Positions 14,059 to 55,278 of a stretch of 64,000 bases of DNA are shown here, piece by piece. The notes beneath the pieces were generated by a model. It was not told the origin of the DNA. It did no database searches and was given only the letters and a program-made list of their open reading frames with translations. The stretch is taken from NCBI GenBank assembly GCA_032768795.1, contig CP136491.1:1922001-1986000 (forward strand), given 5' to 3'. Made by a program: the position numbers and the translations under genes. The stretch's first letter is position 1; every line of letters starts with the position of its first letter. Origin of the DNA: Tremella fuciformis. Lineage: Eukaryota; Basidiomycota; Tremellomycetes; Tremellales; Tremellaceae.

Positions 14059-14060
14059 GT

Positions 14061-19428: not shown

Positions 19429-19436
19429 AGGGGGAG
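19427..19436 (+). other. Polypurine tract
   Basis: AGAGGGGGAG just after the pol stop and 4 nt before the 3' LTR; the expected primer for plus-strand DNA. Confidence 0.65.
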
Positions 19437-19440
19437 CTCC

Positions 19441-19949
19441 TGTCATGACTCGTGATAAGGAAAAGGAGAAAACATGACTCATGGAATGATGTGTTATTTG
19501 GAGAACGTTTATCAGTTGATTAGTCAGCCTCCACCTTGCTTAGTAAGCCTCCACCTCTGAGGCATTTTCCCTATTGGCTAGTTCAAAGAGCTTAGTCAGC
19601 CTCCACCTTTGAGGCATTTTTCCTATTGGCTAGCTTGTAGTTTCCCACGGTGGTCTAAGTGAGGCATTTATCTGATTGGTCAGTAAATCCCTCACGACCC
19701 CTCTTTAATTAGTCCTACCTTTTAGATGTGAAGGGTATAAAAGGAGGCCTCATCTGGCCCTTCCCCCCTTCTTCTTCAGCAATGGATCTTGTGTCTTCTC
19801 TTCACACAAAGTCACTCAGTTGGTCTTAACCCAACACTTCAGTCACCTCAGTACCTAAGGCAGTCATCAAGCTCTACGAGCCAGAGACTAAACCCCTTCA
19901 GTACCCAAGGCAGACCTCTCGCTACCGCAGACTACCCGCAGGCGTGACA
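19441..19949 (+). repeat. 3' long terminal repeat
   Basis: 509 bp; no difference from the 5' LTR was found on reading. Followed by the TGGAT target duplication. Confidence 0.95.
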
Positions 19950-30398: not shown

Positions 30399-30848
30399 CT
30401 ATGGACTTTCCTTGTTGTGACTGATGGTACATCTCGCAGAACCAGCGCCGCCATCGTCAGCCTTTCCCGCAACTTGAAGTTGCTCTGGCGTCAACCCGCG
30501 CTGCATTCTTGCGACACCCTCATCGGGATTCTCTAGACTCCGATGACCAATATACGGCCCGCTCGAGAGCTGTTTGGCGTCTGCAGCGCTGGTTCCGACT
30601 ACTAATACAGGCTCATCACCGCTGCAAGCCGGTCTGCTTGGCAGGTACGCTGTGGACTTTTCGTCGGAGCTTGGGGGATCGTTTCCCCACGTATCGACAC
30701 GAGGGGGATTGTCCAGCCGGGTGGCAATATCGACCAGTTGCGGCACGATTGTGGCCCGATCGGAAGTTTCATCAGTGCTCAACTCGAATAACTCCATGGA
30801 CTCGACGTTTAGCATCGCTGATTCTGTTTTGCCTTGTTCTGTGGGCAT
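30399..30848 (-). CDS. Small orphan protein 1 of the minus-strand array
   Basis: 149 codons in one frame, starting MPTEQGKTESAMLN; an internal ATG 11 codons later is possible. It is rich in Asp/Glu/Ser/Pro with no membrane segment and no recognised domain. It is the most downstream member of a head-to-tail run of about twelve small minus-strand genes. The acidic, Pro-rich N-terminal half (STDETSDRATIV, DNPPRVDTWGNDPPSSDE) is similar in character to its neighbours but lacks the dileucine and PPxY motifs. The last 20 residues may be intron. Assignment as a gene is tentative. Confidence 0.35.
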   Translation of the reverse strand: MPTEQGKTESAMLNVESMELFELSTDETSDRATIVPQLVDIATRLDNPPRVDTWGNDPPSSDEKSTAYLPSRPACSGDEPVLVVGTSAADAKQLSSGPYIGHRSLENPDEGVARMQRGLTPEQLQVAGKADDGGAGSARCTISHNKESP

Positions 30849-31318
30849 CGTTCAATGTACCTGACAATGTAATTCACAAATAAGATTATCAAGCTTCTTA
30901 CGGTCGCGGCGTGCGGAATATGCTTCTTTAGCTGTCAATCGGTGAAGCGAGTGACGCTGAAAGGATAGACACCTATTCTGGCCACTCATGCAGCTTCGAG
31001 TTTGTTGTCCTGGTCACGGTACAAAAGTAGGAGAAAGGGAATATGTCGATGTGCAATCACTCTTGCATTTAGATTCGGTGAAGCTGTGCAATCTTCACGC
31101 CTTACTCCTGCCGAGCCCAGAATATCGTTGAGGGTGATGTCGGTGACTCGAGGTAAAAGGCCACGAGCGATCGTGCGTCGTGGCATCTCTTGTTAGCCGA
31201 GTACCTGAGTGCGCCCGCACATATCAAGAAAACAGTGCATAGAAATCATCAGATGGCTTGTGGCAGCGATGGGAATATTGTCATAGGAAGAGCCGCTGTG
31301 CCATCTCATATCAGACCG
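30849..31318. other. Intergenic in the small-protein array
   Basis: 470 bp; short frames only, nothing recognised. Expected to hold the promoter of orphan protein 1. Confidence 0.4.
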
Positions 31319-32056
31319 TTATGTGTCGCTGTCCCCAGACGGGGGGCTCAAATGAGCCCACTCGGGTTGAGACTGCCCGATTATAGAACGGGTATCCACC
31401 TTCTTGAAAAAACAAAATCCGGTCGCGGTGTGCTCTGGGCAAATTGCAGCAGCGACAATGGAACCGACGATTGCGACGCCGATCCCGCCCACGATAGTCA
31501 CCGTAATGCAGGTTATCGTGGCGAAGAATCCCGCATCGGCGACGGCGGAACAGCACCTCCCACGCGAGCATGGGATGTGTAGAGTTGGCCTAGAGCGATG
31601 GGCGCGGGCCGAGTCAAACCAGGATCGGAACTGGTCGTGGGCGTCAACGTTCTGCTCTTCGTTCGGATTCAAGGGACCAGGTAGGTAGACGTTGAGGGGC
31701 TCCGTCACCCCTTCAGTCAATGTCTCATGACTGGGCTGCAAGGAGGAGCGTCCGCCGTCCGCAGGCGAGATAGGCGAGAGAGGCGTACTGTTGAGGTCTG
31801 TGGCAACTTGAGTGTATGGTGGCGGAGGCGCATAGTCCACCATCGAGTCATCGGTCTGCGTCTGCGTGCCAGGTCCCCCGGCTCTCATTTCGTATGAATG
31901 CCATTCTTGTTGACCGCTTTGGGGAACGCCAGTGATGGGACGCAGTTCAATTTCCTGCGTAAATGCACCGTTTCGCCCCCCCACCAGCAGTGTCTCGCGA
32001 GTTTCCCCTACCGCTCGGCTGATGCGAGTGACTGATTGAATATCGCCTTTCGTCAC
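31319..32056 (-). CDS. Small orphan protein 2: dileucine, PPxY and one membrane segment
   Basis: 245 aa from ATG 32056. It has an acidic dileucine near the N-terminus (ETRETLLVGG, residues about 18-27), followed by EIELRP. A PPPPYTQ motif lies near residue 80; this is a PPxY element, the ligand of Nedd4/Rsp5 WW domains. A single hydrophobic segment (TITCITVTIVGGIGVAIVGSI, about residues 180-200; shown minus flanks) is framed by cysteines (CSRGRCC before, CPEHTATGFCFF after). The core GGIGV recurs in orphan protein 4. The long N-terminal part is disordered in composition. Topology is probably N-terminus cytosolic with one membrane span. No known family is recognised. Confidence 0.6.
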   Translation of the reverse strand: MTKGDIQSVTRISRAVGETRETLLVGGRNGAFTQEIELRPITGVPQSGQQEWHSYEMRAGGPGTQTQTDDSMVDYAPPPPYTQVATDLNSTPLSPISPADGGRSSLQPSHETLTEGVTEPLNVYLPGPLNPNEEQNVDAHDQFRSWFDSARAHRSRPTLHIPCSRGRCCSAVADAGFFATITCITVTIVGGIGVAIVGSIVAAAICPEHTATGFCFFKKVDTRSIIGQSQPEWAHLSPPSGDSDT

Positions 32057-32556
32057 TCACATAGATGTTAGGTGTATCATTTGGTGCCATGTTGTTGAAG
32101 TCTTGGTCGGGGCGAGTTGTAGAAATGCAACAGGCAGATATGTCGCAGGCGCAGCGTGTGGGGCATATAAGTGAAGAAAGTCAGTGGCAAACTTCGCCCT
32201 TCGTTCTTTGCTTGGATGAACGGAGTGGGAGCTACCTTGCGTTTGGCGAAGCCGAGGTGCAGCTTTCACCCTCTTTATTTTCGAATCCATGAGAGTGCTT
32301 AGTCCACTCCACATGACAATTTACAAACATTCCGCCATCTCATATGAAGCTGAAGAGCCCGTCTGCAAAAGCTTGATGAGAGTTAACATACAGGGATTTT
32401 TGAAATGACATCCCTTGTGACTGCAATCTGGTATATGGCGAGCGGTGCAGATGGCCATGGACTGCAATGCTATCATGTTCTTGATTTGCCACGAGAGAAA
32501 TGCATATAGCTCAGTGTACAGGACGACCACTTCATGTGATGAAACTGTACAGTCAA
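32057..32556. other. Intergenic in the small-protein array
   Basis: 500 bp with short frames only; promoter of orphan protein 2 expected near 32060-32300. Confidence 0.4.
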
Positions 32557-33078
32557 TCACCTGTAGGAGCAAGTGCTACTTTGAAGCATAGACCCCGCCC
32601 AGATACCTAGGATTCCCGCGGCGGCTGCGCTACACACTCCTAGATAGAGATCGCGGATGGTCTGTTTGTACGGTTCCAGAAGCTCCTCACCGTAGTCACT
32701 CATGCCGGGCGCATTGGCGGATGCCGAGTGCTGCGAGCGAGCAGCGTGAGCAGCCGAGACCAGTTCTTCTATCTTCCGAACAAGATTGTTCACGGAGTGT
32801 TCCAGCCTGGCAATACTGCCAGTCAAAGCGGCGAGACTGCTAGCATTGGATTCATGGCTCTGTTGAATGAGGGTCTCTGATCGCGTTTTCACTTCGTCTA
32901 CTATGCTGCGCAGGTCAAAGTCCGATTCTTGCACTTCGTAGCCTTTGCCTATGGTTGTGCTTGGCGGGGTGTTTATCTCGGACGACAGGTCGCTTGCTGA
33001 CCCTTGGTTCTCAACAGAACCCCGTCTGGCTGGACCCGCAGCGTCTGAGTAATGCTTCGTGGACGCGCTTTGACTCAT
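32557..33078 (-). CDS. Small orphan protein 3: coiled coil plus C-terminal hydrophobic segment
   Basis: 173 aa from the ATG ending at 33078 (MSQSASTKHY); the open frame extends 34 codons further upstream. After a Ser/Gly-rich N-terminus comes a heptad-like region (residues about 70-125: LRSIVDEVKTRSETLIQQ, IARLEHSVNNLVRKIEEL). A moderately hydrophobic C-terminal segment follows (YLGVCSAAAAGILGIWAGSM), then a short Cys-containing tail. The layout (soluble coiled coil, C-terminal anchor) resembles tail-anchored proteins. It does not share the dileucine or PPxY motifs of its neighbours. Function unknown. Confidence 0.5.
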   Translation of the reverse strand: MSQSASTKHYSDAAGPARRGSVENQGSASDLSSEINTPPSTTIGKGYEVQESDFDLRSIVDEVKTRSETLIQQSHESNASSLAALTGSIARLEHSVNNLVRKIEELVSAAHAARSQHSASANAPGMSDYGEELLEPYKQTIRDLYLGVCSAAAAGILGIWAGSMLQSSTCSYR

Positions 33079-33530
33079 CTTGCTGGAAGGTTTGACCAGT
33101 AATGCAAACTCGGAGGAGCAAGACCAAACAGGGCCCTCGCCTGCGTGGCAGTATGTGCATGCGAGTCTCGACGCCCCCACTCACCACTTAAATCGAAGGC
33201 ACACCTTTGGACTTGCATGTAGCAGGATGCCGGCCTTGCTACTTGTGTTATTGCAAAACGACAAGCGGTGCACAAGGCCGAGTGCGTCTTCACTTTCATC
33301 AAACCTCTCTCGGAGGAGCGGCGTCGAAGACAGCGTTGCCCAGCCTAAGAAGGCTGGTGGGACTGTTTTGACGGTCGGTCATCGCAAGCGTACTTGCGTG
33401 GAACCGCTCCATGAAGCAGAGGTTTCTGAGAGTGCGCAAGTTGACGGACCTCAACGAATGTCAGGTAATGAAGCCCGTATGTTCGCAGCGATGCACTACG
33501 TTGACATGGATGACACATCACGCCGACCGA
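33079..33530. other. Intergenic in the small-protein array
   Basis: 452 bp; nothing recognised beyond chance ORFs. Confidence 0.4.
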
Positions 33531-34184
33531 CTATCTGTCATCCTGAGCAGAGTGATTAGTAGCGTGACTAGCAGCGTGACTCGCGAATGCGAGACCCACT
33601 CCTATTCCACCGACGAGTGTAACGATTACTATGATCGTCCCGTATCGCACTAAACGGCCGTCTGTCCCATCAGACGACCAGTGTCGCAAGCCTCTGCTGG
33701 CGTCCGACGTATGCGAGTGAACGCTCGGACGGCCCCCGCCGCCGGGAGCCTGGGTAGCGTAGCCTATGGACACATCATCGGCGGCGATGTGTCCAGGCTC
33801 GCTGTGCTGAACAGACTCTGGATGTTGAGAGGTTACGTCCCAGGCAAAAGCGGGTGACAGGCGAGGTCTCGCTCCCGCATTGCCGCCCGAGTATGTCCTA
33901 TCGGGATAGTCGTCCGGCATCACGAACGAGGGCATGCTGGTATATCCCGAGTCTACTCCCAGTGCGGTTCTTAGATATGCAGGCTCTGGGCTTTGAGGTT
34001 CGTATGGGGTGTCGTGTTGAGGCTGAAGCCAGTAGTAGTCATAGGGAGGTCGAGGGGGGACTGGAGGCGCCTCAGGGCTACTGGGCGCGCTATAGCTTCT
34101 CGGATAGGAGGTCCTCGGATAGTAGGGCCCATAGTTCCAGCTAGCAGAACGGTTGCGGCGCTCAGAATAGCCTTGATGATCCAT
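33531..34184 (-). CDS. Small orphan protein 4: Pro/Tyr-rich with GGIGV membrane segment
   Basis: About 217 aa from ATG 34184 (MDHQGYSERR); a start 10 codons upstream also exists. The first 80 residues are Pro/Tyr/Ser-rich (PPVPPRPPYDYYW). Near the C-terminus a single hydrophobic segment, YGTIIVIVTLVGGIGVGLAF, precedes a His/Ala-rich tail. The segment shares the TxVGGIGV core with orphan protein 2, and both have it close to the C-terminus, so the two genes look paralogous despite unrelated N-termini. A Gly run (GGGG) and His pairs lie before the segment. No known family is recognised. Confidence 0.55.
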   Translation of the reverse strand: MDHQGYSERRNRSASWNYGPYYPRTSYPRSYSAPSSPEAPPVPPRPPYDYYWLQPQHDTPYEPQSPEPAYLRTALGVDSGYTSMPSFVMPDDYPDRTYSGGNAGARPRLSPAFAWDVTSQHPESVQHSEPGHIAADDVSIGYATQAPGGGGRPSVHSHTSDASRGLRHWSSDGTDGRLVRYGTIIVIVTLVGGIGVGLAFASHAASHATNHSAQDDR

Positions 34185-35113
34185 AACTGCGAAGCACAAC
34201 GTAGGCTTTATCACGAGTCTGCGCTCGAAGCAAGTGCTTTTGACAGGGTCGTCAATCCGCGCTCGCTTACTCAGAGAGTAGCGCCACCCTGCAGGAAGGC
34301 GAACTCGCAGATCCTTTCGACGATGACGAGCAGCTGCTGGGTCGGTTTTGCAGCAGGGGAGCCGAGTCTCACGCTCATGCTGTTGGTCGGATATTGACTC
34401 ACAGGCAGGTGGAAACCTCGTGGGGCGGAGCCGGCTGCGATTGATCTCGCCGGCGGCTTTGGATTACTTGCACACCATATTCCATTGCAATGAGTGGAGC
34501 TCCTTGTTCTTAGTCAAGCACGAACAGATACGCTCGCAAACCTATCTGCACCTGTTGAACGGAAAGAAGCTTTTCTGGGGAGCACAATTCATATCTGCGG
34601 TTCGCCGCACAGTGTTCTCAATCTTGGCAGCCCCAAGTACGCTGAAAGATAGAAGTCAGCTTCCTGCGGGATGAGCATTGACTTGTCGCCCAGATTTGAG
34701 CGAGGTTGTGTAGTCCCAGGTCCTCACAGACTTTCCCAACGAGCAGGCAGAGCAGGGGTGCGGGGTTTCTTAGATGGCTGTGAGGCGCTATCATGGCTCT
34801 CCGAAGAGGCGTGGTCGTCGTGGACAACCATTACATGATGCAGAAACTCGGGGTCGGCATGGAAGACCCTAGCTACCAGATTGGGCTGCACAATAAACGC
34901 CGTACGAGCCTACACTGCTCAATACTAGCAACACTGTTCCCCCAGCAAATCGCTGACAAGCGCGGACAGAATGCTCCTGCTGCTTACGGGATCTACCCTC
35001 AAAGTTGCTGGCCAGCGACCCATCGGCGTGGCACGCCCATGGCGCCAGGGCCTCCAGGTCCGTGAGTTGGCAGGCAGCCTGTCGGCGTACGGCGAGGACG
35101 TTGAAGAGATCGA
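34185..35113. other. Intergenic or unrecognised
   Basis: 929 bp. A minus-strand frame at 34869-35117 includes a hydrophobic stretch (GGTVLLVLSSVGSYGV) that could be a membrane-spanning exon belonging to the next gene, but no consistent splice was found. Confidence 0.35.
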
Positions 35114-35547
35114 TCATACTGGGACCCTGGGGAATTTTGCGCGGACCTCACGACGGTCATCGAGCCCGCACCCCATGGTCTCTGAGCGTCCGATGGGCTT
35201 GCTTGATGACGCCAAGAGTCTCGAGGCTACTCGCCTTCGACTGAGTCGCCGAGAGCGGCGCCGTGGCCGGGCTGCAGGCACTCACGGGTGTGGGAAGTTC
35301 TGAGAAGATCCGTCGGTGCGTTTATGCGTCTATCGATCCGGCTGTCTGCATACGTAGGGGGCGGCGCTGGGATCCCCATTACTTCGAGAGAGTCGCCGCA
35401 CCCCGATTGTCTTCGAGAAGCCGGACTCTGGAGCTCATACGGCCCAGGTTCGTTTCTGAAAGTCGGCTCCAAGTCCTGGCGTGCGACCAACTTAGGTCGT
35501 TGTGCCCGCTTGGGGCCTCTCGCATCCTTCGATATGCAGTAGTGGTG
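35114..35547 (-). CDS. Small orphan protein 5 (5' end not located): PPxY
   Basis: Two exons can be joined with consensus signals: 35286-35547 and 35114-35226 (intron 35227-35285, GTGAGT...GTAG). The frame has no ATG, so a first exon must lie upstream of 35547, where a CCTCTAG acceptor is present. The visible part has GPYELQSP, then a PPPTYAD motif (PPxY), then a Ser/Arg-rich tail ending FPRVPV. The PPxY sits in the same disordered setting as in orphan proteins 2, 6, 9 and 11. A third exon with a membrane segment (near 34.9-35.1 kb) is possible. Confidence 0.4.
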
Positions 35548-36155
35548 CTAGAGGAAGATATCGAGTGTGAGTCGATTTAGATGGCGGGTTGTGACCTGAT
35601 GAGATCCGTACGCTGAGTGTTGTAAAACCTGCAGCCGTCGATGTAGGACCAGACCAGATCCCCAAGCACAAGGGAGGGTGCCTAAATGCGGCATCGAGTG
35701 TTCTAGGCCCTGTGCCTCCCTTACAATATGCAACTCACGCAACCGAGGCCACTTCTGGCTGTCAGGTTCTGGACATGCGAAGTCTTGGGATGTCCGATGA
35801 AGGCTTCGCTCAGCCAGACTCCGAAGGCTTGGCAGTTTAATGAGGGGATTCTGACTAATATGGCTCAGCGCCAACCCGAAGATACGATGCCCATATAATA
35901 GAGTTTCCAGGTAGAGGAAGAGGTTCTGAAGGTGGTCAGAACCTATGGGCCGGTCTTACGGACAATCGCACGGACCACGTGATGTTGTGGCGCATCTGTC
36001 CAAAGTAATTCCAACTGATCAGTTGATGGCTTCTGCGAGTTTTAGGCGAGCAGCTCGGTAGCATTGTAAGTGGTGGATGGGAGATACATTTACATAACAA
36101 GCACTATATATATATACCCAGAACAGTCTGCGAGCAAGAACGACCAGGCCAGGTT
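35548..36155. other. Intergenic or unrecognised
   Basis: 608 bp. Probably contains the missing first exon of orphan protein 5. A minus-strand frame here has an LRR-like look (WPRLRELHIV), but it is too short to call. Confidence 0.35.
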
Positions 36156-36689
36156 TCACTCGGAAGGGCAAATGCAGCATGCGAGTTCGCGTCCAGTCTT
36201 GCCGACCGCACGATAGACACAGGTGTCTTTCATGACCTCTTCACAGGTCACTCCGACTGTCCTGCCGGTCACCGTGCATTGATCATCCGCTATGGTGCGG
36301 TACTGCTCGGCCCCGGGACCAAGTTCTACCGCGCACACCTCGTCGGGACACTCTCGCGACTCGCTCCGCATCTCCGAGTGAGGGGCATATGCCCGGTTAA
36401 GCATTCCGCCTCGTGCCTTGCTTCACCTGGTCAGTGCTTGTTGGGGCAGCCTTTGTAGCGGAATACTTTCTTGGCTCTCGGCGACAAAGTCGACTTGCTC
36501 CGTTGGGGGGCTGGTAGTATACTTTGGAGGTGGACGTAGCGATGGCGGAGACCCGTCGACGGTGCTGGCGCCATCTGGATTATCGTTGGCCTGATTCTCT
36601 TCTAGAAGTGGTTGTTGCTCCGCACTTCTGAGATCTCCCTCGTGCGACTGAGAGTCCCGGACGCTGTCAGTCGAGGGCTGGGTGTCCAT
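36156..36689 (-). CDS. Small orphan protein 6: dileucine, PPxY and Cys-rich C-terminus
   Basis: 156 aa in two exons, 36427-36689 and 36156-36363 (intron 36364-36426, 63 nt, GTGAAG...GGAG). Start MDTQPSTDSV. An acidic dileucine EQQPLLEEN (residues about 25-33) is followed by PPPKYTT (PPxY, about residue 55) and ESIPLQRL. The second exon is Cys-rich, with eight cysteines including a terminal CCIC. The cysteine-rich end and the I-P-L block are shared with orphan protein 7. The modular layout is a disordered signalling-motif N-terminus and a small disulfide-rich or metal-binding C-terminus. No known family is recognised. Confidence 0.55.
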
Positions 36690-37318
36690 AGTATCTCGGT
36701 TGTTGATTGAGTGAAGTGGTAAAAGAGAGACGTGAGCATTGTTACACCGCTGAACGGGCATGCATACCGAAACACCCCGTGAGCGAAGGCAAGAGGAGCT
36801 TGTCAAAAGATTACACACCCTCGTAACATCTCCTTTCCGTTAAGACCTCATGAGCGGGAAGCCCAAATTCCTTGCTTCTTGCTGGAGAAGGACAAGCGAC
36901 GCGGACTGTACGACCACTTGTACCGAGGATCGCTCATGAACTCTCTTGTGAACACGGGTCCGCGGTAAGTTGCCCCTGCAAGGCACCCGACCGCCTCTAA
37001 TGACGCGGGTTCAAGTGACGCTTGAGCCGCGCACTCCTACAGGATCGCTCGCTAGAGGTTCTGTGGTCTGCAGCGGAAGCAGTCGATACGCTTGGCCGGT
37101 CGGCCGCGACTGGTCCGCTGAGCTGGCTGGATTGGCAGCCTTTGACGAGGCGGACCTCGCATGTTCTCACCTACTGTAGTGACCTTTCGCAGTCAAGCGT
37201 CTAGGGAGGACCCTCCACCCCTGCCAGCTGAGCAGCCTGGGATCTGGGGAGTGACAGAATGCTTCATGCACAGAGCTATAAGTTGCGTAAAGCAGAAACA
37301 ACATGGACGGCGAATGTT
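36690..37318. other. Intergenic in the small-protein array
   Basis: 629 bp; nothing recognised. Confidence 0.4.
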
Positions 37319-37843
37319 TTATCGCCCACAGCAAAGGGCTGGACATCCTTCTCGGCATGTATGCCCTATATGCGTAGGGCAATCGTTGCACACCGTGTCT
37401 CTGAACTTCGAAAGATCTTCCACTGCGGGCTTGGCGAGGCAGGTTGCCGCACGGTCGAGTGCAGCCGAAGCCCCACCTCCAACGATTGCACCACACACGC
37501 TCGAGTCCATCGGCTGTTGGGACGCATACGTATCCGTGACAGGTTCCCGACTCTGAGCCGCATTGTGCATGGTCTGCGGGGCGTATGGGTTCTGGTCACC
37601 ATTGGCACAGGTGCCGCAATCTTGTCGACGTAGCCGCCCATGCGGACAGGATCCGCGTGCTAAGGTAGCAGAATCACGGGAATCGTCCTCATCATCCCGG
37701 TCGGCGATTTTGGCCATCATTTGGTCAAAGTGAGATTGCGAGCTCGGATTTAGGGAGCGTAGGGGTATCGATGCCTCGGGCTCATTGCCAAGCAAACGAT
37801 CCGTTTCCTCCGCGTCCGTCGAAGGCTCATTGCGAACGCTCAT
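37319..37843 (-). CDS. Small orphan protein 7: dileucine, CxH-CxxC and terminal CC
   Basis: 174 aa in one frame from ATG 37843. An acidic dileucine EETDRLLGN (residues about 12-20) is followed by EASIPLRSL. A C-x-H-x7-C-x2-C motif, CPHGRLRRQDCGTC, lies near residue 65. The C-terminal 60 residues carry six more cysteines and end CPALCCGR. The same CxH...CxxC motif occurs in orphan proteins 8 and 12, and the same terminal CC in 6 and 12. Four ligands spaced like this could bind one zinc ion. No membrane segment is seen. Confidence 0.6.
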   Translation of the reverse strand: MSVRNEPSTDAEETDRLLGNEPEASIPLRSLNPSSQSHFDQMMAKIADRDDEDDSRDSATLARGSCPHGRLRRQDCGTCANGDQNPYAPQTMHNAAQSREPVTDTYASQQPMDSSVCGAIVGGGASAALDRAATCLAKPAVEDLSKFRDTVCNDCPTHIGHTCREGCPALCCGR

Positions 37844-38541
37844 ATCGTGGCAAACAGATGCCTGGAGAGAAAAGGTAGAAAGACAGGGCGAAGTATGTAG
37901 ATATCTATGTAAGCACGATCGTTAGCTTCTCGCCCATTTGTACGTCCTGGGTGTTCTCGTTTAGCAATCGTTTCACAAAGGTCCAGTGACCCTTTCATCT
38001 TGCATGACCTATGATTTGATCATCGCAAGCGATGTCGTCAATCATGCCTGCCAGTAAGAAAGGAGAGACGCGAACAAGCGATGGCTTGGAGCGTTTCATT
38101 TGGGAATTGTCGAGCGGTCGCTTGCCAACACACAGTGAGGCTGTCATGGATGAGAAGATGCCTCCATAGAAGAATGTTTTCAACTGAATTTGCGAAACAT
38201 ACGTCAGTGAACCGAGAGCATTGAGTTAGACTCTCGGTGTCATATTCCTGGCAGGTTTGAAAAACTCGCAGCGTGTCGGGCTCTTGCACATTGCTCACAA
38301 GAGACCGCGAAGAGAGTAGACCAAACGGGGACGAGAAGCTGTTTTGAACGGCGAGGGATCATATATTTTCCTACTTAACAGCATCACATTTCACAATGAT
38401 CATCACGAGCGGGTATGCACTCAGCAACAAGGAGTGTTCACTCTGCTGATGGTCTCTCTTCACAGGTGCATAAGCATGCTTCAAGAATGAGGTTCTTGTA
38501 CGTGAGAGTGAGAGGCAATGTATAATTAAGCTGAAAACATG
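37844..38541. other. Intergenic in the small-protein array
   Basis: 698 bp; nothing recognised. Confidence 0.4.
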
Positions 38542-39243
38542 TTAAAGCGTATGAAGGTCCAGTGTGTCTGAGATAGGGATTACCACAGAGTTTGACCCGA
38601 GGCGGAGGACGCCTTGAGGAGGTGAGTGGTCGAGGCGGCGCTGGCGTGCGTCCGTGGTTTCTTCTGGACAGCGCGGAAACCATCCGCAATTATCATAACA
38701 GTCGGTATCGACGTCGTTCCCATCGTTGGGCTCGGAGTCCCTGTCCGGACTGAGATTGCGTGCAGTCGAAGGGTCAAAGGCTGAGGTACTGCCGTCGGGC
38801 AGCATCGGCGGGTGCCCATTGTACGGCTCTCGCCTAATGTTGGGGTTCTCATCCGTGTTCCCAAGATGAGAATCCTCACTTTGGTCAAGAGGCAGAGGCG
38901 GCGGGTGAGTTGATCGATCTGTCTTGCATCGATCGCAGCTCGCCACTTGTATGTGGTGAGTGCAGTAATCCTCCGGCTTTCGGCTGCTATCGACCTTAGC
39001 AGCCAGCATGGTATCCATAGCGAGTTGCGGATTAGGAGAAGTGTAGGTTCCCTGAAGAAGTGGGGTCGCCTCGTCAGACCTTGTCCGGCTGTGCGCTGCT
39101 GGGACGCTCTCGGATATGATCGCTTGAGACGAGCACGTCCTCAAAGTGGCGGATCGACTATTTACGAGATCTTTTTGCAGACCTCCTATGACGTGTGTTG
39201 CAACTTTTAGCAACGCTGTACTTTGTGGAAAGGAACGAAACAC
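38542..39243 (-). CDS. Small orphan protein 8 (start uncertain): dileucine and CxH-CxxC
   Basis: The open frame of 233 codons begins with GTG, so the true start is probably in an upstream exon (a spliceable ATG frame exists at 39207-39392). Visible motifs: RSDEATPLLQG (acidic dileucine, about residue 60), then CTHHIQVASCDRC (C-x-H-x6-C-x2-C, about residue 93), a Pro/Asp-rich middle, and CYDNCGWFPRC near the end. The order matches orphan proteins 7 and 12. The C-terminus lacks the CC motif and ends in a hydrophobic VVIPISDTLDLH stretch. No function is recognised. Confidence 0.5.
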   Translation of the reverse strand: MFRSFPQSTALLKVATHVIGGLQKDLVNSRSATLRTCSSQAIISESVPAAHSRTRSDEATPLLQGTYTSPNPQLAMDTMLAAKVDSSRKPEDYCTHHIQVASCDRCKTDRSTHPPPLPLDQSEDSHLGNTDENPNIRREPYNGHPPMLPDGSTSAFDPSTARNLSPDRDSEPNDGNDVDTDCYDNCGWFPRCPEETTDARQRRLDHSPPQGVLRLGSNSVVIPISDTLDLHTL

Positions 39244-39432
39244 AGAAGAAGTCTCAAACGGTAACCCGGTTTGAAAATCGCATTTTCACCAATGCCCCAA
39301 CACGCAGAGCCAAACCTGTACCTATGCATGCCAGAAGAGTCGCTTGCGAGAATGCGAGCCGAAAAAGCTGACATGAGGTGCCGAGCAATCATCTATGCGT
39401 CTCGCTCCGTGCGTTGAAGCCGGTCCAAGTAG

Positions 39433-39969
39433 TTAAGCAGACGCAGAAATCGCCGAACCTTCTGGATCATCGCGAGCAGCCTCTAACGATTCTTCTCTTT
39501 GGACCGCCGAGGTAGATGGCTCTACAACGCAGAGGGGCGGCATGATGCCTGCGTCCACCAAGGTGTCTTCGGGTTTCTGGGTCGGAGTAGATTCTCGACT
39601 TGATTGCGAGCTCACTTCAGCGACCGAGACGACAACGTTTGTATCTTCCTCCCGGGGCGTATATTGGGGAGGGGCCTCTTCTACAGGTCGTTCTTCCTCC
39701 TCCCCACACCCGTCTGTCCCAATGGCATATACAGTATTGAAGGTGAAGTATCTTTGGAGGAGAGCCGCTCGTTTGGCGGTAGTGCCACCTAGGTCTCTCG
39801 TGTTCGCGCTCGGCGGAATTGGCTGCCGAGTGCCTGTGCCCGACGAGTCCACTGAAGGAGTTCCGGGAGTGTGAAGAGCTCTGTGCGAGGAAGACCAGGT
39901 CGGAGGGGGCATCTGGGTCCCGCGGCTCATCCCGGAGCTGCATTCCTGATTGACATTCGTTGCCGGCAT
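39433..39969 (-). CDS. Small orphan protein 9: PPxY
   Basis: 178 aa in one frame from ATG 39969. Composition is disordered (Ser, Thr, Pro, Glu). EEAPPQYTPREED (about residues 95-108) is a PPxY motif next to an acidic run (EEEERPVEE). A KRAALLQRYF segment lies upstream of it. No cysteine cluster or membrane segment is seen. It fits the array by its PPxY motif, strand and size. Confidence 0.5.
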   Translation of the reverse strand: MPATNVNQECSSGMSRGTQMPPPTWSSSHRALHTPGTPSVDSSGTGTRQPIPPSANTRDLGGTTAKRAALLQRYFTFNTVYAIGTDGCGEEEERPVEEAPPQYTPREEDTNVVVSVAEVSSQSSRESTPTQKPEDTLVDAGIMPPLCVVEPSTSAVQREESLEAARDDPEGSAISASA

Positions 39970-40509
39970 CTCGGGGAAGAGGGGGATCTCTCCTGCTGAG
40001 GGAAGCTTTGGAGTGTACGGTTCGCCACAGAGAAGCAGATATCGGATCGGAAGATAGGTGAGGGGAAAATGCTGTCGGTGATCAGGTCAGGAGGCCGAGT
40101 TGAGTGGACGAGACAGGGGTGCGTTATTTCCTTTGTGGGGGGAGAGACATGCGACTCGGTTGAGATTGGCCGCCCGCAGGAGGCGGTGATGTATGGAGGG
40201 GTGGCTTTGCACACTGCCGCGTACTTGAGCTGCTTTGCTTGAGCCAACGTCAAAGACGAAACAGACGGAGTTGTTGGCGGGCACGCCCAGAGACTCGCCC
40301 ACGCCACATTTCTTATATTTCCCGAGGTCATGGACGATTAGCCGTCGGTCACATCTTATCTGGAAGCCCGACCAGAGAGCGAGCTAGCTGTGTTCGGCTA
40401 GCTTGGGTTAGAAATTGCTATTCTTGAGCAGCGTAAACTATTCAGGTGAGAGCTCAGAGCATCAATTAGCTGCATTGGGTATGCACACATTTGAAGTTAA
40501 TTCTCATGA
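39970..40509. other. Intergenic in the small-protein array
   Basis: 540 bp. A minus-strand ATG frame (39927-40331) crosses it but overlaps orphan protein 9 and has no shared motif. Confidence 0.35.
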
Positions 40510-41384
40510 TTACTCGTCGCACACGTCGAACACCTCTAGACATTGGTCCAACGACTGAAAGCGGTCCGCTACCGAGCTTCCCAGCTCGAGGCTCTGATGC
40601 CAGCATCCGTTCTCCCCGTTCGTGGCAGGAGAACCTGTCCGAACTTCGCGAGTGGTTTCGTCAGGCGACGCGTCGCTCGACCTACTCATGGTGCACACTT
40701 CATTTGTGGCGCTCAGACATGGATAAGTGAGCCAGGAGCGATCTGACACGACGACCTGCTGCGTCCCCAAGCTCATCGGTGAATGAGACCTGTATGACTG
40801 TACAATGGGAGGTCGTACCCTACTCAAGGTGGACTGGGGGCACTCGGAACTCACCACAGCAGTCAAGATATTCGTAGGGGCACTCTGCTGGGAGGTAAGA
40901 TCGGGCGTGAGTCGTATCGTGGGAGCAGCTGGAGACACGGAACGGCCCTCCCCAGACCCAAGGCGCTGACCACTGGGGTACCCCGACTCTTGACCAACAC
41001 TTCCCTCCAGAGGCCGGAAGCTCGGCTCCGCGTTGTGTATCTCCTCGGCCATCAGATCCGTAAGTTTTGAGAGGGTTTTCTTTCGACTTGGCGGCATCAT
41101 CTCCGGGATTCTGCGCAGTTACCCTTGTGATCAGAGCGCTTGGGAAGCACGCACTTACAAGTGACGGTGCCACCAATGAGTAGAGGGCAGACAGTCCAGG
41201 ACGAGAGGATCAATTGTAGAGGCAATCTGGAAATGGTCGAACAGAGATGCGGCCTTCTCTCTGCGTGCTTCGGAGCTAAGCATGCGGAGAAGACGCAACG
41301 ACTGTGGACATCCAAAGCATTTCCAAGGGCTACAAGGGATGCCTCGAGACCGACGACAAATACGAAGACAAGTGGAAGATGCAT
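40510..41384 (-). CDS. Small orphan protein 10: two hydrophobic segments and a long disordered tail
   Basis: About 272 aa in two exons, 41155-41384 and 40510-41110 (intron 41111-41154, 44 nt, GTGCGT...GCGCAG). The first exon encodes two hydrophobic segments (PLVFVFVVGLEASLVALGN and PLQLILSSWTVCPLLIGG) separated by a Cys/His-containing loop. The second exon is a cytosol-like Ser/Thr/Pro-rich tail with several cysteines, ending LEVFDVCDE. The first segment could instead be a signal peptide. It lacks the dileucine and PPxY motifs. No known family is recognised. Confidence 0.45.
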
Positions 41385-41504
41385 GAGCAGCGGAAGTGAA
41401 GAGAAGAAGTGATACGAAGTGGTGCATCCAATACGTCGGAAGTGGGTAGCGGGGTCCGTACAGTATGCAGTGCGCGCGAAGAGTTCAAGTTTGTTCGGCG
41501 ACCT

Positions 41505-42131
41505 TCAACTTTGACGGTTGCGCCCGACCATATTCGCGACACTGGACCAGCCATCGGAGATTGCTTGCATCGTTCGCAGGTCGGGATGACCCCAGCGCTC
41601 GCAGGGACCCTCCATGACCGCCTCGATTGGGCTGAAGCAGGGATCAATGAACGCGCATAAGGCCTGCTCTATGGGTCCATCTTGGCTCACTTGTGTTGCG
41701 GGATCAGCCTGCATGGTCATTTGTGGCGGACTGCTGTATACGGCCGAGCCGGACATCCCTTGGAGTGGGGCCAAAGTGTTAGACTCGATAACACCGGGAC
41801 CACGTATGACTTGCGAGTCTTGATAACTGGGCGGAGGTTCGATTGAGACTGACCTCGGCGCTTCTGACAGAGTTGCAGCGAGATTATCATAGTATTCCTG
41901 AGCCTCGTCACTCAAGAAATAAGTGTCGGGCGCAGTCTCCGTCTGGGGTCCGCGGGGTCCGCGTGATTGAACCGATGCGATAGCCCCATTTGGAAGAATG
42001 TACTGGGAGTAGGTGGGAGGATTCCCCTGCGGAGGCTGAGAGCTGCGGGCAGCAGAGCTCGCGGTGACAGTTGCAGCGCTGCGAGTCCTACGGCTCCGGT
42101 GGCGGCGATCAGGATTATTTCCAGTACTCAT
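41505..42131 (-). CDS. Small orphan protein 11: two PPxY motifs
   Basis: 208 aa in one frame from ATG 42131. An Arg/Ser-rich N-terminus (RRHRSRRTRS) is followed by two PPxY motifs: NPPTYSQY (about residue 38) and EPPPSYQDS (about residue 98). Tandem PPxY is typical of Rsp5/Nedd4 adaptors, which bind several WW domains at once. The C-terminal 60 residues contain CAFIDPCFSP and PCERWGHPD. No membrane segment is seen. It is the best-supported candidate ubiquitin-ligase ligand of the array. Confidence 0.55.
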   Translation of the reverse strand: MSTGNNPDRRHRSRRTRSAATVTASSAARSSQPPQGNPPTYSQYILPNGAIASVQSRGPRGPQTETAPDTYFLSDEAQEYYDNLAATLSEAPRSVSIEPPPSYQDSQVIRGPGVIESNTLAPLQGMSGSAVYSSPPQMTMQADPATQVSQDGPIEQALCAFIDPCFSPIEAVMEGPCERWGHPDLRTMQAISDGWSSVANMVGRNRQS

Positions 42132-42766
42132 CTCCTGATCAGTTGATTAGAACAAAGAATAACGACTGTCTAAGATAGTCCGATGTTTGATTCAGCACTC
42201 GCGTGGTCTTTGAGCGTTCTGGCTGGTAGAGTATTGGCGGCGATGTAGTACACAGAGGTGAGGCTCGCCATGTTCTTATACATTCACTTGGACGGAGAAG
42301 GCCATATGACTTCCCCGTTTTACTCCTTTGTCAGCCCAGAATTCGAAACAACTCAAATCAGATGTCCGCTTGAAGGCGTGAGTCAGGAGTTTAGAAGGCA
42401 GACTGAGCGGCCGCCCGCATGGAACACGGAAGAACCATCGAGAGTCTATCACTAGCTCCATGTGATGATGCTGGGTCGTCTAAACAGCCTTTCATACGAA
42501 CAAACAGTTTCATACGAACAGCCCCACGTGAGTAGACAACGGGGCCTGGGGTAGGGTAGTTAGGGCGTTGTGCGACCCTCGCGCCCAGGCCAATGTATCA
42601 CCACATTGAATATACGCTCATCTCAGTGACCCTTAATTACTGTGTAGAATTTACGTTTCGTGCCACTGAGCTTGTCCTGCCGACCTATCTCGCTCGCTCC
42701 TGGTTAGCTGGGAGGGCAAGGAATGTATATGCATAGGCACATATGACTTGAAGTAAGGGTGCCGGC
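42132..42766. other. Intergenic in the small-protein array
   Basis: 635 bp; a short direct repeat CATACGAACA(A/G)(A/C) near 42495-42525 is the only structure noted. Confidence 0.4.
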
Positions 42767-43343
42767 CTATTGGCTACCAGTCTGAAATACAAAGATCGTG
42801 TTCGGGTCCCTGTTCATATCGGCCTCTGATGGCCCTCCAGTGTCGGGCACACAGCAGAATTTATAGATTCCCGTGCCAATGCAGTTCGTGAATTTTTCGG
42901 AATTGCGACGGATGTCGTTCGCAAGTGGCTCCAACGTCAACATTGGATCATCCCTGACGCATTCACTGAATGTACTCCGAGCCGCGTGCAGACCGTCTCG
43001 TACACCTGAGGCACATCCGGTCACTGTGCCCCACACCAGGGGCAGTCTGCATCTGGTCCGGCGGAGTGTAGCCCGCATCATCAAGTGCGGGATGGTCTGC
43101 GGTGTCAGCGTCACCATGGAACCGAGGGGCGGGCTGTGAGGCATAAGCACGCGGCTGATTGGGTCGGCACGTCGGGCAGGCCGAAGTAAGCAGCCCATGG
43201 TGACATCGTGCTGTTGCCACGGAGCTGTCGCCCGGAGCCCCCATGGAACTCAACTCTATGTCGTACGCCCTTCCCGAGAGAAGGGTGTCATTCTCCCGTG
43301 GCTGTAACTGGGATACTTGGTGGTGACCTTGGTAGGTGCTCAT
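42767..43343 (-). CDS. Small orphan protein 12: dileucine, CxH-CxxC and terminal CC
   Basis: Starts MSTYQGHHQV at 43343. RENDTLLSG (acidic dileucine, about residues 16-24) is followed by DIELSS and then CHHGLLTSACPTC (C-x-H-x6-C-x2-C, about residue 47). The N-terminal frame must switch near 43.0 kb to a second frame that encodes CASGVRDGLHAARS, NCIGTGIYKFCC and ends VFQTGSQ. Either a 31-nt or a 60-nt intron would join them; the latter is the more plausible length. The order dileucine, CxH-CxxC, terminal CC is the same as in orphan protein 7, and the two are the clearest paralogues of the array. Confidence 0.55.
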
Positions 43344-43993: not shown

Positions 43994-45108
43994 TCACACC
44001 GCTCTCCACGTCTGCAACTTGAACTCCTCGCTTGGATCCTGAGGCCCGGAAGCGGCACGTCCGTACACAGCGCGAGGGCGGAGGTAAAGCGGCGCCCAGA
44101 TGACGGTCCAAGGAGCGATGGCGAAGAAGAGCGGGAGTGCGTCAAGGCAGTAAAAGTAGACTTCGGTGGACTGGAGGACGCCGTCCCAACCCAAAGCATA
44201 CTCGGCCACACGGTAGCCATTTCGGATCTACCCGTCAGCATATGTCGAAGCGAGAAAACAAAGAAAGGGACTTACGAGGAAACCGACACAGCTCCAGGCG
44301 AGCTGCGCGTATAGTGCGCGCCAGTTGGTGCGCCAGCTTTCGCCTTTGCTGATTTCCAAAACGAGCGGGCGGGACTTGGTCTTGATCCAGAACGTAATGG
44401 TGAGGAGGGTGAAGAGGGCGAACGAGATGAGCTGGAGGATGATACCGACCATGGCGATCTGACTGATGAGCCCGACTGATGTGAATCACGCAGATGGGCT
44501 CACTTTCGTACCGATGTTGCTCATGTTGGCATCCTTTGACGCGCTCAGTCCGCCACCTCCGGCCTGAATCCAGAAAGTGATCACATCACTCCAAACGAAG
44601 ATTCGGGCAATCAAGCGGGGAGGCAGAAACAGGCAGTCGACCGCGCCGAGATGCTCGGCCAAGCGCGGAAGGAGCATATAGTTCTGCGCAAGGAACGCGC
44701 ATGGCGAGAGCAGGATGAACTGCAAGGTCAGCTGTGTCGTTCACCGGCCAGTACTGATGATCTCGTACCAGTGTGGATCCAATGTATATTCCAAGCGAGT
44801 GCGGACTGAAGTGCGAGCCAATGCGTATGCCGTACCCGACGGCCATACAGGTCGTGCCGATTGTGATTGGCAACATGTACCTCATCCCCTGCCGCGCGAA
44901 ACCTGTTGTCAGCCTCAACGGCCGATTCGGATACGAGTCAGGCTCACGGATCCAGTACACCACCGCGAGCGCGCCGAAGAGGGCGAGGGCCACAATGGCC
45001 ACAACGAGGTTGGGCACATAGCCCGAGCTGCTGGTCAGCGAAAAAGTGCCACTGGAAAAAAGGTGCCACGCACATTCCCGCCCGTTGATCAGTCTCGGAG
45101 TCGGACAT
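43994..45108 (-). CDS. RTA1-like seven-helix membrane protein, copy 1
   Basis: Member of the fungal RTA1/RSB1 family (lipid-translocating exporter-like), 308 aa, with a short soluble N-terminus. Exons 45074-45108, 44769-45027, 44504-44719, 44276-44458 and 43994-44227; introns 45-49 nt. Family marks: GYVPNLVVAIVALALFG (helix 1), YGIRIGSHFSPHS, LSPCAFLAQNYMLLPRL, the SDVITFWIQAGGGGL block, AMVGIILQLISFALF, WRTNWRALY, and RNGYRVAEYALGWDG...STEVYFYCLDALPL at helices 6-7. In yeast, relatives are induced by sterol or sphingoid-base stress; no regulatory site is recognised here. The tandem paralogue is upstream (45749-46870) with the same intron positions except for one extra intron. Confidence 0.88.
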
Positions 45109-45748
45109 GCTGTGACTTGTCTCGCTGAGTATTGGTGCAGAAGAATGTGGTCAAAAAGAGGCTCTGACGAGGCTGCGAGTGCTGTAGTGTTGCGATGCGA
45201 TAGGAAAGCGTTGGTCTAGACGCGATATATATGTTTGACTACCCCAGCTCCTTTATCGGCGACGGACCATCGGAGTCTCCGTCGGTGACTCCGAGTGACC
45301 ATGATTGCACGCCAAGCCTCGTCGGAGCGCCCATTGCTTCGCAGCAGGATACATATGCACCGCTTTGGATCAGCTGAGCGCCTCTGCACCGCCCACCTTG
45401 ACCGGGGCCCGCGAGACGGGAACGCTGAAGTCGGTGAGAATCTCTCGGAGAGCCCTTTATCATTACGATCTCACGTGACCGCTCAAACACCGCGCGCCGA
45501 AGAGATCATCGCATTGCAATTCTGGTAGTCTGGGCTTGTTCGGACAGTCCGACATGTCGAGGCATGGCGTCGTTCGGCGACAAGGTATGGTACATGTTCT
45601 AGGATCTCTGCGTCATTCTACACTGCTTTCTCTTACACGGCACAATGGCGTCGGATTGTCCTGATGTCGTCCATCTGGTCTCGCTTCTATAGTGTCTGAT
45701 TGGGTCTAATTGCTGGACCGCCATGGGTCGGGCGCCGGGACAGATGTG
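45109..45748. other. Intergenic between the RTA1-like genes
   Basis: 640 bp. It contains an imperfect dyad ATCGGAGTCTCCGTCGGTGACTCCGA near 45269-45294 (read as CGGAGTC...GACTCCG). Otherwise nothing. Confidence 0.4.
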
Positions 45749-46870
45749 TCAGGCCGTTGTTTTGCCCCACGAGGTGCTGCTTTCATTCGTCGAAGAGAGG
45801 GGGATGGGGCTCTCCCTGAACTGGAGGTATCTCGGCGCCCACAGGATGGTCCACGGCAAGATGGCGAGGAAGAGCGGGATCGAGTCGAACACGTAAAAGT
45901 ACCACTCGGTCGAGTTGAGCTTGCCGTTCCACCCCTCGGCGTACTCGGCAGTGCGATACCCATTGCGGACCTCACTAATCAGCCTTGAAACGGGCAGAAC
46001 TTTCGCAGGGGTACGAGGACTGACCAGGTAGCCGATACTGCTCCAGCCCAGCTGGAAGAACAGGACGCGCCAGTTGGTACGCCACGATTCGCCCCGCCCG
46101 TGCGCGATGACTTGGGGTTTGGAACGTGCCTTGAGCCAGAAGACGATGATGAGCAGTGTGAAGAGGCAGTACGACACGAGCTGCGCGATGATCCCAATCA
46201 TGGCGATCTGGACTCAGCTCCGGAGGCACCGGCCACGAAGCCACTCACGGTCGTCCCAGTGTGCTGAGTGCTGGGGTTGTCCGAAGTGGTCAGACCCTGT
46301 CCTCCGGCCTGGATGGCGAACGTGAGGATATCACTGATGACGAACACCCAGCCGATAATACGCGGTCGAAGCAGTAGAGAATCGCTCGCTCCCAGATGTT
46401 CAGCGAGCCTCGGCAGAAGGACATAATTCTGGGCCAGAAACGCGCAAGGCGATAAAAGGGTGAACTGGAGATCAGTTTCCCGTGTCATATGGAGACAAAG
46501 GAACAGTGGGGGACTCACAAGAGCCATGGCGATGTATACGCCCATGCTGGCCGGGGAGAAGTGCGTGGCTATGCGGACGACGAAGCCGATAGTCAGGCCG
46601 GTGGTACCCATGAGGATGGGCCACATGTATCGCTGGCGGCCGTTGCGGAAGAAGTCTGAGGTCAGCCGTGAGCGACAAGTTGCAATCTCGAGCATGACTC
46701 ACTGAAGAAGAAGGTGAGGGCCAGCGAGCCAAAGACTACGACGCCAATGATCGCCAGAGGAAGGTTCGGCACATATCCCGAGCTGCACAATGAGCCACTT
46801 GTGGATCGACCAGCGAGACTCACATGGGGTCGTCGTCAGACTGGACTGGTTGCGTCTGGTTGGCGGACAT
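45749..46870 (-). CDS. RTA1-like seven-helix membrane protein, copy 2
   Basis: 294 aa, tandem paralogue of the gene at 43994-45108. Exons 46824-46870, 46703-46782, 46519-46655, 46249-46464, 46025-46207 and 45749-45970; introns 41-54 nt. The N-terminus MSANQTQPVQ contains a possible glycosylation site (NQT). Shared blocks: SGYVPNLPLAIIGVVVFG, LSPCAFLAQNYVLLPRL, SDILTFAIQAGGQGL, AMIGIIAQLVSYCLF, WRTNWRVLFFQL, RNGYRTAEYAEGWNG and STEWYFYVFDSIPL. The extra intron in helix 1 (46656-46702) is absent in copy 1. The C-terminal tails of the two copies are unrelated. Probably a plasma-membrane or vacuolar protein; substrate unknown. Confidence 0.88.
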
Positions 46871-50709: not shown

Positions 50710-52380
50710 TTAAATACCAGCGGCCGTCCTTGCCGCCCACATCATCCCCGCAAAGCTCTGTGCCTCTGGCGAATGCAACGTCGGGTCATCGGGATACACG
50801 ACCCACCCGTACGTTCCCAAGGGATCAACGACATGTGTCGCCCACCCGTCGTCGCCTATCTTCGCCATTACGCCCTCCCATGCGGTCTCGGCACCCTGAG
50901 TGAGGACGTCGACCGCGTACTCTGGGCAAAGGACGTGAAAGCGATAATACGCGGCCACGACCGCTGCTGTGCCCGAGACGTCGCCAACGGCAAGCGTCGT
51001 GTTGCTCTGCAGCATGTAATTTGGGATCAGGTTGTCGGACTGGCCTCAGTTTCTCTCTTCTGATCACACTCCGGATGAGGACAACTCACGTCCAGCTGCT
51101 GCCACAGCGAGTTGAACACCGGAGCGGCTTGTTGTTTGACTTTTGTCACGTCGCCAGAGAATGAGCCTGTCTGACCTGCGGCATCGATGCTCGCAAGCTG
51201 CGCTCAGCCTAGAAGAATTTTGACATTTGGCCTGGAGGGCACTGACCACTCGCATCAACCCGTACAGCATCCAACCATTGCCCGTCGCCCAGAATCGCGC
51301 ATCCCAGTCGTTCACATGCCGGAAGAGGTTTTCGTCCGTATCAAGGAGTGCGGACGACTCGAGGATCCACTGTTCTAGGCCAAGCTGGAGGAGTGTGTTG
51401 TCTGAAGCTGCCAGTCCGAGATCTCGTATGTGAGCTTTCTTCTAATTGCCTTGTCTCAAGCTCACACGCAGGGAAGGGCGGGATCATGTATCCCATATCC
51501 GCCCACAGCTCAAAGTACCCGTCACGCTGGCTGATCGTTCCTATCCGTCAGGCCCACTCGCATCAGAAGGAGAGCAAGACTTGCCGTTGTCTGACGTGCT
51601 CCCGCTTTCCAGGTACGACAGCTGATTTCCCACTGCCCACGCGTAATCTGCGCCGCTTCGTGCGCCATCGATCGTTGTGTTGAGCGACTCGATCAGCTGC
51701 CCAGCAATGTAGGCCGCCGCACCGAGGGAAGCAGGGTCCCCGAGAGCTCCGTCACCGGGCACTAACGCCTGTGGCTTGAGCGGGACAGGCGCAGTATTGG
51801 AGAGGTATATCGACACATCGTCCGGCGTCGTCGCGCCTAGCGATGAGGGGGAGCCGGTCCAGTCGTATGACTCCATGGTCGCGACAAGCACCTCCAGCAT
51901 CGCCTCGGGGAGGTCGTTGGAAGATATGCTGTCTTCCGGACCTTGGTAGGCGAAGGGCGAGAGGGAGGGGTAGTACAGCTCGACTAGAGCGTTGCAGAGC
52001 GTGCCGAGTTCCCATGAGTGCGTCGAGATGGATATTGCGTTTTGCATGACGGATGGGAGTAGGTCGGTCAAGCGGGTATAGGAAGAGGAAGTGATCTGCG
52101 CATTGGGGGTTACGGATGGTAGGCTGACCGACGGAGGGCTGTAGCTTTGCGTGCTAGTCGTAGACACGGTGGTGGTCGAGGTGATTGAGCTGGTCGTAGG
52201 GGCGCTTGTGGGAGCTGTAGCCGAAGTGCTGCTTGTCGTGCTTGACGCGGACCTGGTAGAGGTGTACGACAGTGTCGAAGACTGCATCTCTCTGTGGAGC
52301 AGAGCAAACTCCCGACCACGCGCATGGGGGGCCGCGGTCACCCCCAAGCTGACCAACAGGCCCCAGTAGACCGCCAGCAT
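50710..52380 (-). CDS. Secreted six-hairpin glycosidase-like protein (GH88/GH105-like), copy 1
   Basis: 494 aa. Exons 51585-52380, 51466-51540, 51247-51422, 51090-51197 and 50710-51039. The first intron (51541-51584) has a GC donor (AACG|GCAAGT). The N-terminus is a signal peptide (MLAVYWGLLVSLGVTAAPHA), then a Ser/Thr-rich stretch of about 60 residues that is likely O-glycosylated. The catalytic-like domain is an (alpha/alpha)6 barrel pattern: SWELGTLCNALVELYYP, DYAWAVGNQLSYL, WADMGYMIPPFPAY, NDWDARFWATGNGWMLYG and GTAAVVAAYYRFHVLCP. The order resembles unsaturated glucuronyl/rhamnogalacturonyl hydrolase-like fungal proteins; the exact substrate class is uncertain. The tandem paralogue 52921-54718 has the same five-exon structure. 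Confidence 0.75.
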
Positions 52381-52920
52381 CTCGCCGTCTTCAAAGAGCG
52401 TGGGTCAATTAGCTAAGTGAATAGAATACGAGACAGAGAACCAGCACGGTGTCACGGCGAGGGTAAGCTCATATACATGTTGCTACGCGTCGGTAGGGGC
52501 AGAGGCGCTGCGCCAAGACAAGGGGTCAACAACGGAGCGATGATGCGCCAACTCGATTGCACGCTGGAGGCCGAAAGGAGTGGCCCCACATGCTTGAGCA
52601 CAGCTGGGTCATGTGAGAGCACCGTAGATGAACTGCTTGCTTAGTATCTCTGTGAAACGCCTTTGAGGGGGATTGACGCCGAGACGCCCGGTCGGTGGGT
52701 GCCTTGCGCAGCTTGGCGCCGATGCGATGGCCCGATCGCACATGCTCGTCGCGTCCGCTGGAGGACAGGTCGTAGGTGGAGCACACATAGATACACAAGG
52801 TATGGTAGTATGATTGATTGTGCGAAAGACTGTTAAAGTTGGTGTTGGGAGGAATGAGTCTACGGAATCGGCAGTCGACAGCAAACTATAAATTGAAATG
52901 TCCTCCCAGCTGCCAGTCGC
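52381..52920. other. Intergenic
   Basis: 540 bp between the two glycosidase-like genes; nothing recognised. Confidence 0.4.
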
Positions 52921-54718: not shown

Positions 54719-55278
54719 GGTGCAGTCAGCGGTCTTGGTAAAGCTGTGAATTAGAAGATGTTAGATGGCAAGTGAGCAAGCTTGGAGCCATGGGCCCACA
54801 AGGGACCTTTGTAGACGTCACGATTCGTCAGGAAGGCCATTCCTCAAGCGCAGGAGCAACCGCCTGACCCTCGGGGATCGCCATGAAAAGATTGACAAGC
54901 GCGATGATGAAACGCCTTTTGACCTCGTTCGGTGATGCGGACGAGCCCGAGCCGGGCCCGACATCCCAGGAATCAGCAGCTCGTGAGTACGCTGCCAAGC
55001 CTCTAGCGACTCTTTCCTAGCTCCCGAAAACATGTTGCTGCACACCGCAAACGTAACTACTATGTTTCCGGCGAAGCACGATGACCATTAAGTGGGGGGG
55101 GGGGATACAAATTCACGTTGTCGATGACCGGTTAAGAGAAGAGGCCGGTTGGGAGAAAGAAAGAGGCATTGACCAACATCGCCTCTCCCTTCTCTCTTCT
55201 CTCCATACTGCTTGATTGCGAGGCCCAACTTTGCCCACTCGACATCGTTCAGGCTCTCAGAGATACTCAAGAGCCACA
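54719..55278. promoter_or_regulatory. Divergent upstream region, glycosidase copy 2 / Fox2
   Basis: 560 bp between start codons; contains an 11-base G run near 55094-55104. No oleate-response element could be assigned with confidence. Confidence 0.4.

Follow-up and report, generated by a model that had tools for sequence, protein, structure and literature searches.

A minus-strand array of small, lysine-poor orphan genes in Tremella fuciformis with candidate links to ubiquitin ligases and vesicle coats

About twelve small genes, all pointing in one direction on the minus strand, form an array of ~13 kb in the genome of Tremella fuciformis (28.1 Mb in 11 contigs). The array lies within a 64,000-nucleotide (nt) stretch of contig C2, the whole of which was analysed and is here called the window (CP136491.1, positions 1,922,001 to 1,986,000; assembly GCA_032768795.1). 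Judged from sequence, it appears to be a largely real, lineage-restricted and fast-changing set of orphan genes sharing short motifs. Most likely the products, which are poor in lysine, recruit a Nedd4-type ubiquitin ligase and coat adaptors and are in some cases attached to membranes. A first-pass annotation had presented the locus as a locally expanded family of trafficking or ubiquitin adaptors; its observations have been partly confirmed and its interpretation partly supported, and the poverty in lysine and richness in cysteine are additions to what it observed.

Gene models and coding potential

The twelve models are given below, with lengths in amino acids (aa). Four motifs are shared among them, namely PPxY, the acidic dileucine [DE]xxxL[LI], I[EP]L and C-x-H-x6/7-C-x2-C (CxH..CxxC).

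g1, 30399..30848, minus strand: 149 aa; lacks all four shared motifs.
g2, 31319..32090, minus strand: LL, IEL, PPxY (PPPY) and a hydrophobic stretch in common with g4; predicted 34-nt first exon and 49-nt intron.
g3, 32557..33078, minus strand: 173 aa; hydrophobic Ala/Gly-rich C-terminal segment in which no kinship with the other segments could be detected.
g4, 33531..34184, minus strand: 217 aa, lysine-free; hydrophobic C-terminal segment probably paralogous to that of g2.
g5, 34869..35547, minus strand: exons 35547-35286, 35226-35172 and 35118-34869 with two predicted introns (first exon and start uncertain, the alternative possibly being 35874-35596); PPxY (PPTY); g4-like C terminus.
g6, 36156..36689, minus strand: exons 36689-36427 and 36363-36156 with a predicted 63-nt intron; dileucine EQQPLL, PPxY (PPKY), IPL, C-terminal cysteine cluster.
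g7, 37319..37843, minus strand: single exon, 174 aa; dileucine ETDRLL, IPL, CxH..CxxC; eight cysteines within the last 70 aa.
g8, 38542..39102, minus strand: dileucine EATPLL, CxH..CxxC; open frame with no ATG before the dileucine, possibly through a missing exon or as a pseudogene.
g9, 39433..39969, minus strand: 178 aa; PPxY (PPQY).
g10, 40510..41097, minus strand: 195 aa; cysteine-bearing C terminus; lacks all four shared motifs.
g11, 41505..42131, minus strand: single exon, 208 aa; two PPxY (PPTY, PPSY); no lysine.
g12, 42767..43343, minus strand: two exons (43343-43006 and 42965-42767) with a predicted 40-nt intron; dileucine ENDTLL, IEL, CxH..CxxC, C-terminal cysteine cluster.

Between 30001 and 43500 there are 14 stop-free frames of at least 150 codons on the minus strand (some overlapping) vs. 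two on the plus strand. At a threshold of 200 codons the minus strand retains eight, in eight different array genes, and the plus strand none, which bears out the minus-strand array described at first pass; simulated sequences (order 1, 2, 3, and 5; 300 runs each) reached at most seven frames of this length. Coding status is also favored because the PPxY and CxH motifs are concentrated in the sense frame, with few or no occurrences in the five others, and because g2 and g4 resemble each other in protein despite their different codons. The direct repeats shared within the array (10 families of 18-32 nt) are chance-like, and the best shared upstream 8-mer, present in 10 of the 12 genes, was equaled in 2 of 30 shuffles. 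Predicted structures are of low confidence, with a predicted local distance difference test (pLDDT) score of 43.6 for g7 alone and 40.2 for g2 with g4.

Shared modules, lysine content and kinship

PPxY is found in g2, g5, g6, g9, and g11 (5/12 proteins; six sites, two in g11), CxH..CxxC in g7, g8, and g12 (3/12) and I[EP]L in g2, g6, g7, and g12, all as the first-pass annotation had read them. The dileucine that it assigned to g2, g6, g7, g8, and g12 takes the strict acidic form in the last four of these, from residues 24, 13, 11, and 17 of the respective models and thus within the first 70 residues in 4/4, whereas g2 has LL. These would be candidate AP-binding sites if exposed to the cytosol. 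A C-terminal membrane segment or cysteine-rich end had also been proposed. With a hydropathy of 1.6 as the cut-off for a membrane segment, only g2, g3, and g4 (3/12) have a hydrophobic stretch in the C-terminal part, one each, that of g2 having room for one segment or, at most, two. The last 70 residues hold eight cysteines in g6 and in g7 and five in g12 and in g10; the moderately hydrophobic C terminus of g5 (1.44) falls below the cut-off. The fixed order of modules had to be abandoned, as PPxY and CxH never occur in the same protein and I[EP]L comes after PPxY in g6.

Motif counts in the array exceed those of composition-preserving shuffles, a significance that is overstated because the motifs were picked from the same data. 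Three controls are free of this fault. In the other five frames of the array DNA, PPxY occurs in 0, 0, 0, 1, and 1 proteins and CxH is nearly absent; 13 other gene-poor gaps hold one PPxY site combined vs. four in the array; and among 60 neighboring genes PPxY is found in six, an early dileucine in eight and CxH in none.

The array proteins are also unusual in composition. Lysine accounts for 28 of 2140 residues (1.3%) vs. 4.7% in the 60 predicted neighboring genes, while arginine is at a similar level (6.6 and 6.2%) and cysteine is raised threefold (2.7 vs. 0.9%). Lysine per protein differs at p = 9e-6 (Mann-Whitney, 12 vs. 59 proteins), with 10/12 array proteins and 10/59 neighbors under 2%. 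The longest lysine-free runs span all 208 aa of g11, all 217 of g4 and 212 of the 240 of g2, and are short in g3 (37/173 aa) and g1 (56/149 aa). Among PPxY proteins, g11 has no lysine, g2 and g9 have two each and g6 has three. Of the codons read in frame, 1.4% are AAA or AAG; the figures are 3.1 and 2.3% for the other sense frames and 3.1% for the same-strand non-coding part.

A candidate partner for the PPxY motifs is encoded in the same genome, which has eight WW matches above cut-off. One open frame, on contig C3, holds three WW domains together with the start of a HECT domain (profile positions 2-146 of 306) and is, by these predicted domains, a ligase of the Rsp5/Nedd4 type. A ubiquitin-adaptor role for the array is plausible, and it gains both from the lysine depletion and from the presence of the triple-WW/HECT ligase. 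Lysine deserts are reported to be prevalent in disordered proteins of the ubiquitin system, and adding lysine to them raised the ubiquitylation of some (PMC10169902).

Kinship within the array is clearest for g2 and g4, which are very probably paralogues. Their alignment scores 76 in frame vs. 25-41 in eight other frame combinations, and 34 of its 44 identical residues are encoded by different codons; in the hydrophobic C-terminal block V-T-x-V-G-G-I-G-V, 8/8 shared residues differ in codon, each at the third base. Likeness in protein with different codons is consistent with selection on the protein with saturated silent sites, and implies an old split. The C termini of g4 and g5 are suggestively alike. 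In total, 9/12 genes (g2, g4, g5, g6, g7, g8, g9, g11, and g12) are linked to another member through one or more of these modules or through the likeness of the g2, g4, and g5 C termini. The earlier idea of a locally expanded family is supported as a diverged, motif-sharing set of these nine; a single family of twelve is not supported, similarities being mostly at control level. An alignment of five proteins did not bring the modules into register. We consider the array to be a largely real assembly of at least two subgroups plus some passengers.

The absence of a known family, also stated at first pass, was upheld: 10 raw array open reading frames (ORFs) gave no Pfam or NCBIfam match over cut-off, and four models gave no Pfam match at E ≤ 1. 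Against 5.8 billion proteins, g7 and g2 matched only the window's own protein and g11 had no match at E ≤ 10, its own sequence included. Searches of the genome with g7, g2, g4, and g11 returned the queries themselves, weak hits at three places (on C1, C6, and C3) and no second copy of the array; these searches are word-based and diverged copies could escape them. The open frames at the weak places, which we take to be a sulphate-transporter-like gene, a serine-rich protein and a transcription-factor-like gene, look unlike the array, and these places were rejected as relatives. As a separate observation, the protein database places g2 in three contigs (the longest of 6544 bases) and g7 in one (995 bases), and the organism or a close strain may thus occur in other public assemblies. 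The array is not described in the available portions of the literature on spore killing and basidiomycete meiotic drivers, wtf, Rsp5 adaptors, tandem orphan genes, dileucine and PY motifs, or lysine deserts.

Proposed role and alternative explanations

Starting from the computed features (ORFs, motifs, g2-g4 similarity, lysine depletion, and presence of the ligase), we infer a model of membrane attachment, binding, sorting and sparing from ubiquitin. In this model the tandem genes would be confined to the lineage and, for the most part, truly protein-coding, and their products would have mostly disordered, lysine-poor tails. A C-terminal hydrophobic segment would hold g2, g4, g3, and perhaps g5 on membranes, and a lipidated or metal-binding cysteine-rich end might attach g6, g7, and g12. 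In the tail, PPxY would dock onto the WW domains of the Rsp5/Nedd4-type ligase encoded in this genome, and AP-type coat adaptors would be bound by the acidic dileucine. Each protein would in this way bring a ubiquitin ligase and a vesicle coat to a partner in the membrane, and this partner would be sent on to the endosome or vacuole. Being short of lysine, the adaptor would itself be spared and could act in trans and not as cargo. That the products are orphan, lysine-poor, partly membrane-attached adaptors of this kind is a tentative proposal, held at less than even confidence; the ubiquitin part of the earlier interpretation is plausible, and trafficking we infer. If true, the array would be a test case for how short motifs connect disordered orphan proteins to the conserved machineries of ubiquitylation and vesicle coats, and for whether loss of lysine permits ligase recruitment without destruction of the adaptor. 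Alpha-arrestins (ARTs) are adaptors, as proposed here, and guide Rsp5 to membrane cargo; however, the array proteins searched had no Pfam match over cut-off.

Several results weigh against this proposal. The array frames lack the synonymous codon bias typical of neighboring genes. After training on 264 kb, a gene finder retained no gene within the array; with a relaxed start penalty it returned short minus-strand pieces, including parts of g12, g10, g8, g7, and g6, scoring up to 3.8 (plus strand at most 1.8). Four of the 12 genes have none of the four motifs, and the dileucine, the weakest motif of the set, also occurs in each of the two other sense frames (one and two proteins). Whole-protein similarities other than g2-g4 do not rise above frame-shifted controls, and g1, g3, and g10 are untied to the other members. 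Lysine depletion is tempered by five lysines each in g3 and g1 and seven in the 281 residues of the longer g5 model; it may in part be explained by base composition, since AAA and AAG are just as scarce (1.5-1.6%) in the antisense frames.

A first alternative is a set of unrelated young orphans, arisen de novo or by decay, in which PPxY and dileucine appeared repeatedly in proline- and serine-rich disordered proteins. The missing codon bias, the want of relatives for g7, g2, and g11, pairwise scores mostly at control level and the absent start codon of g8 all agree with this explanation. However, it does not account well for the protein likeness of g2 and g4 with saturated third positions, for motif counts above both shuffles and other frames or for the early position of every strict dileucine, and we regard it as somewhat unlikely.

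Alternatively, the products could be small cysteine-rich or membrane stress proteins in which PPxY merely marks vacuolar cargo of Rsp5, as in yeast Sna3. The raised cysteine content and the C-terminal clusters of g6, g7, and g12 fit this, and Sna3 is a small membrane protein that carries PPxY, binds a Nedd4-type ligase and requires the motif for its endosomal targeting (PMC2171029). Sna3, however, is ubiquitylated on its own lysine, whereas the array proteins are lysine-poor, g11 having none, and share no family match over cut-off with a known group. The lysine argument is weak, as a few lysines would suffice. Nonetheless, because lysine deserts fit ubiquitin-system proteins and Sna3 needs a lysine, trans-acting adaptors are preferred over self-ubiquitylated cargo, which we consider doubtful here.

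A conflict locus resembling wtf is possible by analogy. Poison and antidote proteins would be encoded, with PPxY members kept harmless by ligase-driven endosomal sorting, and conflict, meiotic or allelic, would drive rapid turnover. The wtf genes are a lineage-specific family of killer meiotic drivers of Schizosaccharomyces, the products of which carry PY motifs on an N-terminal tail that precedes the membrane segments (PMC10721834); the array likewise encodes orphan proteins, and PPxY of g2 is on a tail, of presumed membrane side, ahead of the hydrophobic stretch. In contrast to the multi-transmembrane toxin and antidote products of wtf, as described there, the array has single hydrophobic stretches in three proteins and no sequence match. 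No Pfam match passed the cut-off, no wtf model stood among the weak Pfam matches listed, and the four genomic queries found no other copy; dileucine and CxH..CxxC are features that the array has in addition. We therefore think this explanation unlikely, although, if the array were also a conflict locus, selfish genes would have exploited PY-motif sorting more than once in fungi. Least probable is a new conflict system evolved independently of wtf, in which lysine-desert, membrane-attached proteins hijack the Nedd4-type ligase and coat adaptors through short motifs and PPxY-type and CxH-CxxC-type proteins are opposed partners, e.g., antidote and poison. The DUP240/COS genes of budding yeast also encode tandem, fast-evolving small membrane-associated proteins; these have two membrane segments, and the array has no such match.

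Genomic surroundings

A coatomer alpha/beta'-type gene with COPA/B domains (model 24.7-28.0 kb, plus strand) borders the array on one side. On the other are two tandem RTA1-like genes (PF04479) on the minus strand, as the array (models 44.0-45.1 and 45.7-46.9 kb; 43994-46870). Further along, at 51541-54760 (minus strand), are two tandem Ser/Thr-rich, secreted-looking proteins that are closely similar across about 105 residues (score 308) and gave no Pfam match at E ≤ 0.001.

The window also holds a Ty3/gypsy element at 13550-19949 (plus strand) with reverse transcriptase, RNase H, integrase, and chromodomain. This element, the RTA1-like genes and the spliced gene models are in keeping with a fungal genome, and the style of the introns may suggest a basidiomycete. 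Both of its 509-bp long terminal repeats (LTRs) are identical (509/509) and, by reading of the flanks, the same five bases bound them, which points to a very recent insertion. Diverged gypsy pol copies and LTR-like pieces are found on both sides of the window, at about -64 to -38 kb and +64 to +74 kb, one LTR-like piece being of 510 bp and 98.6% identity.

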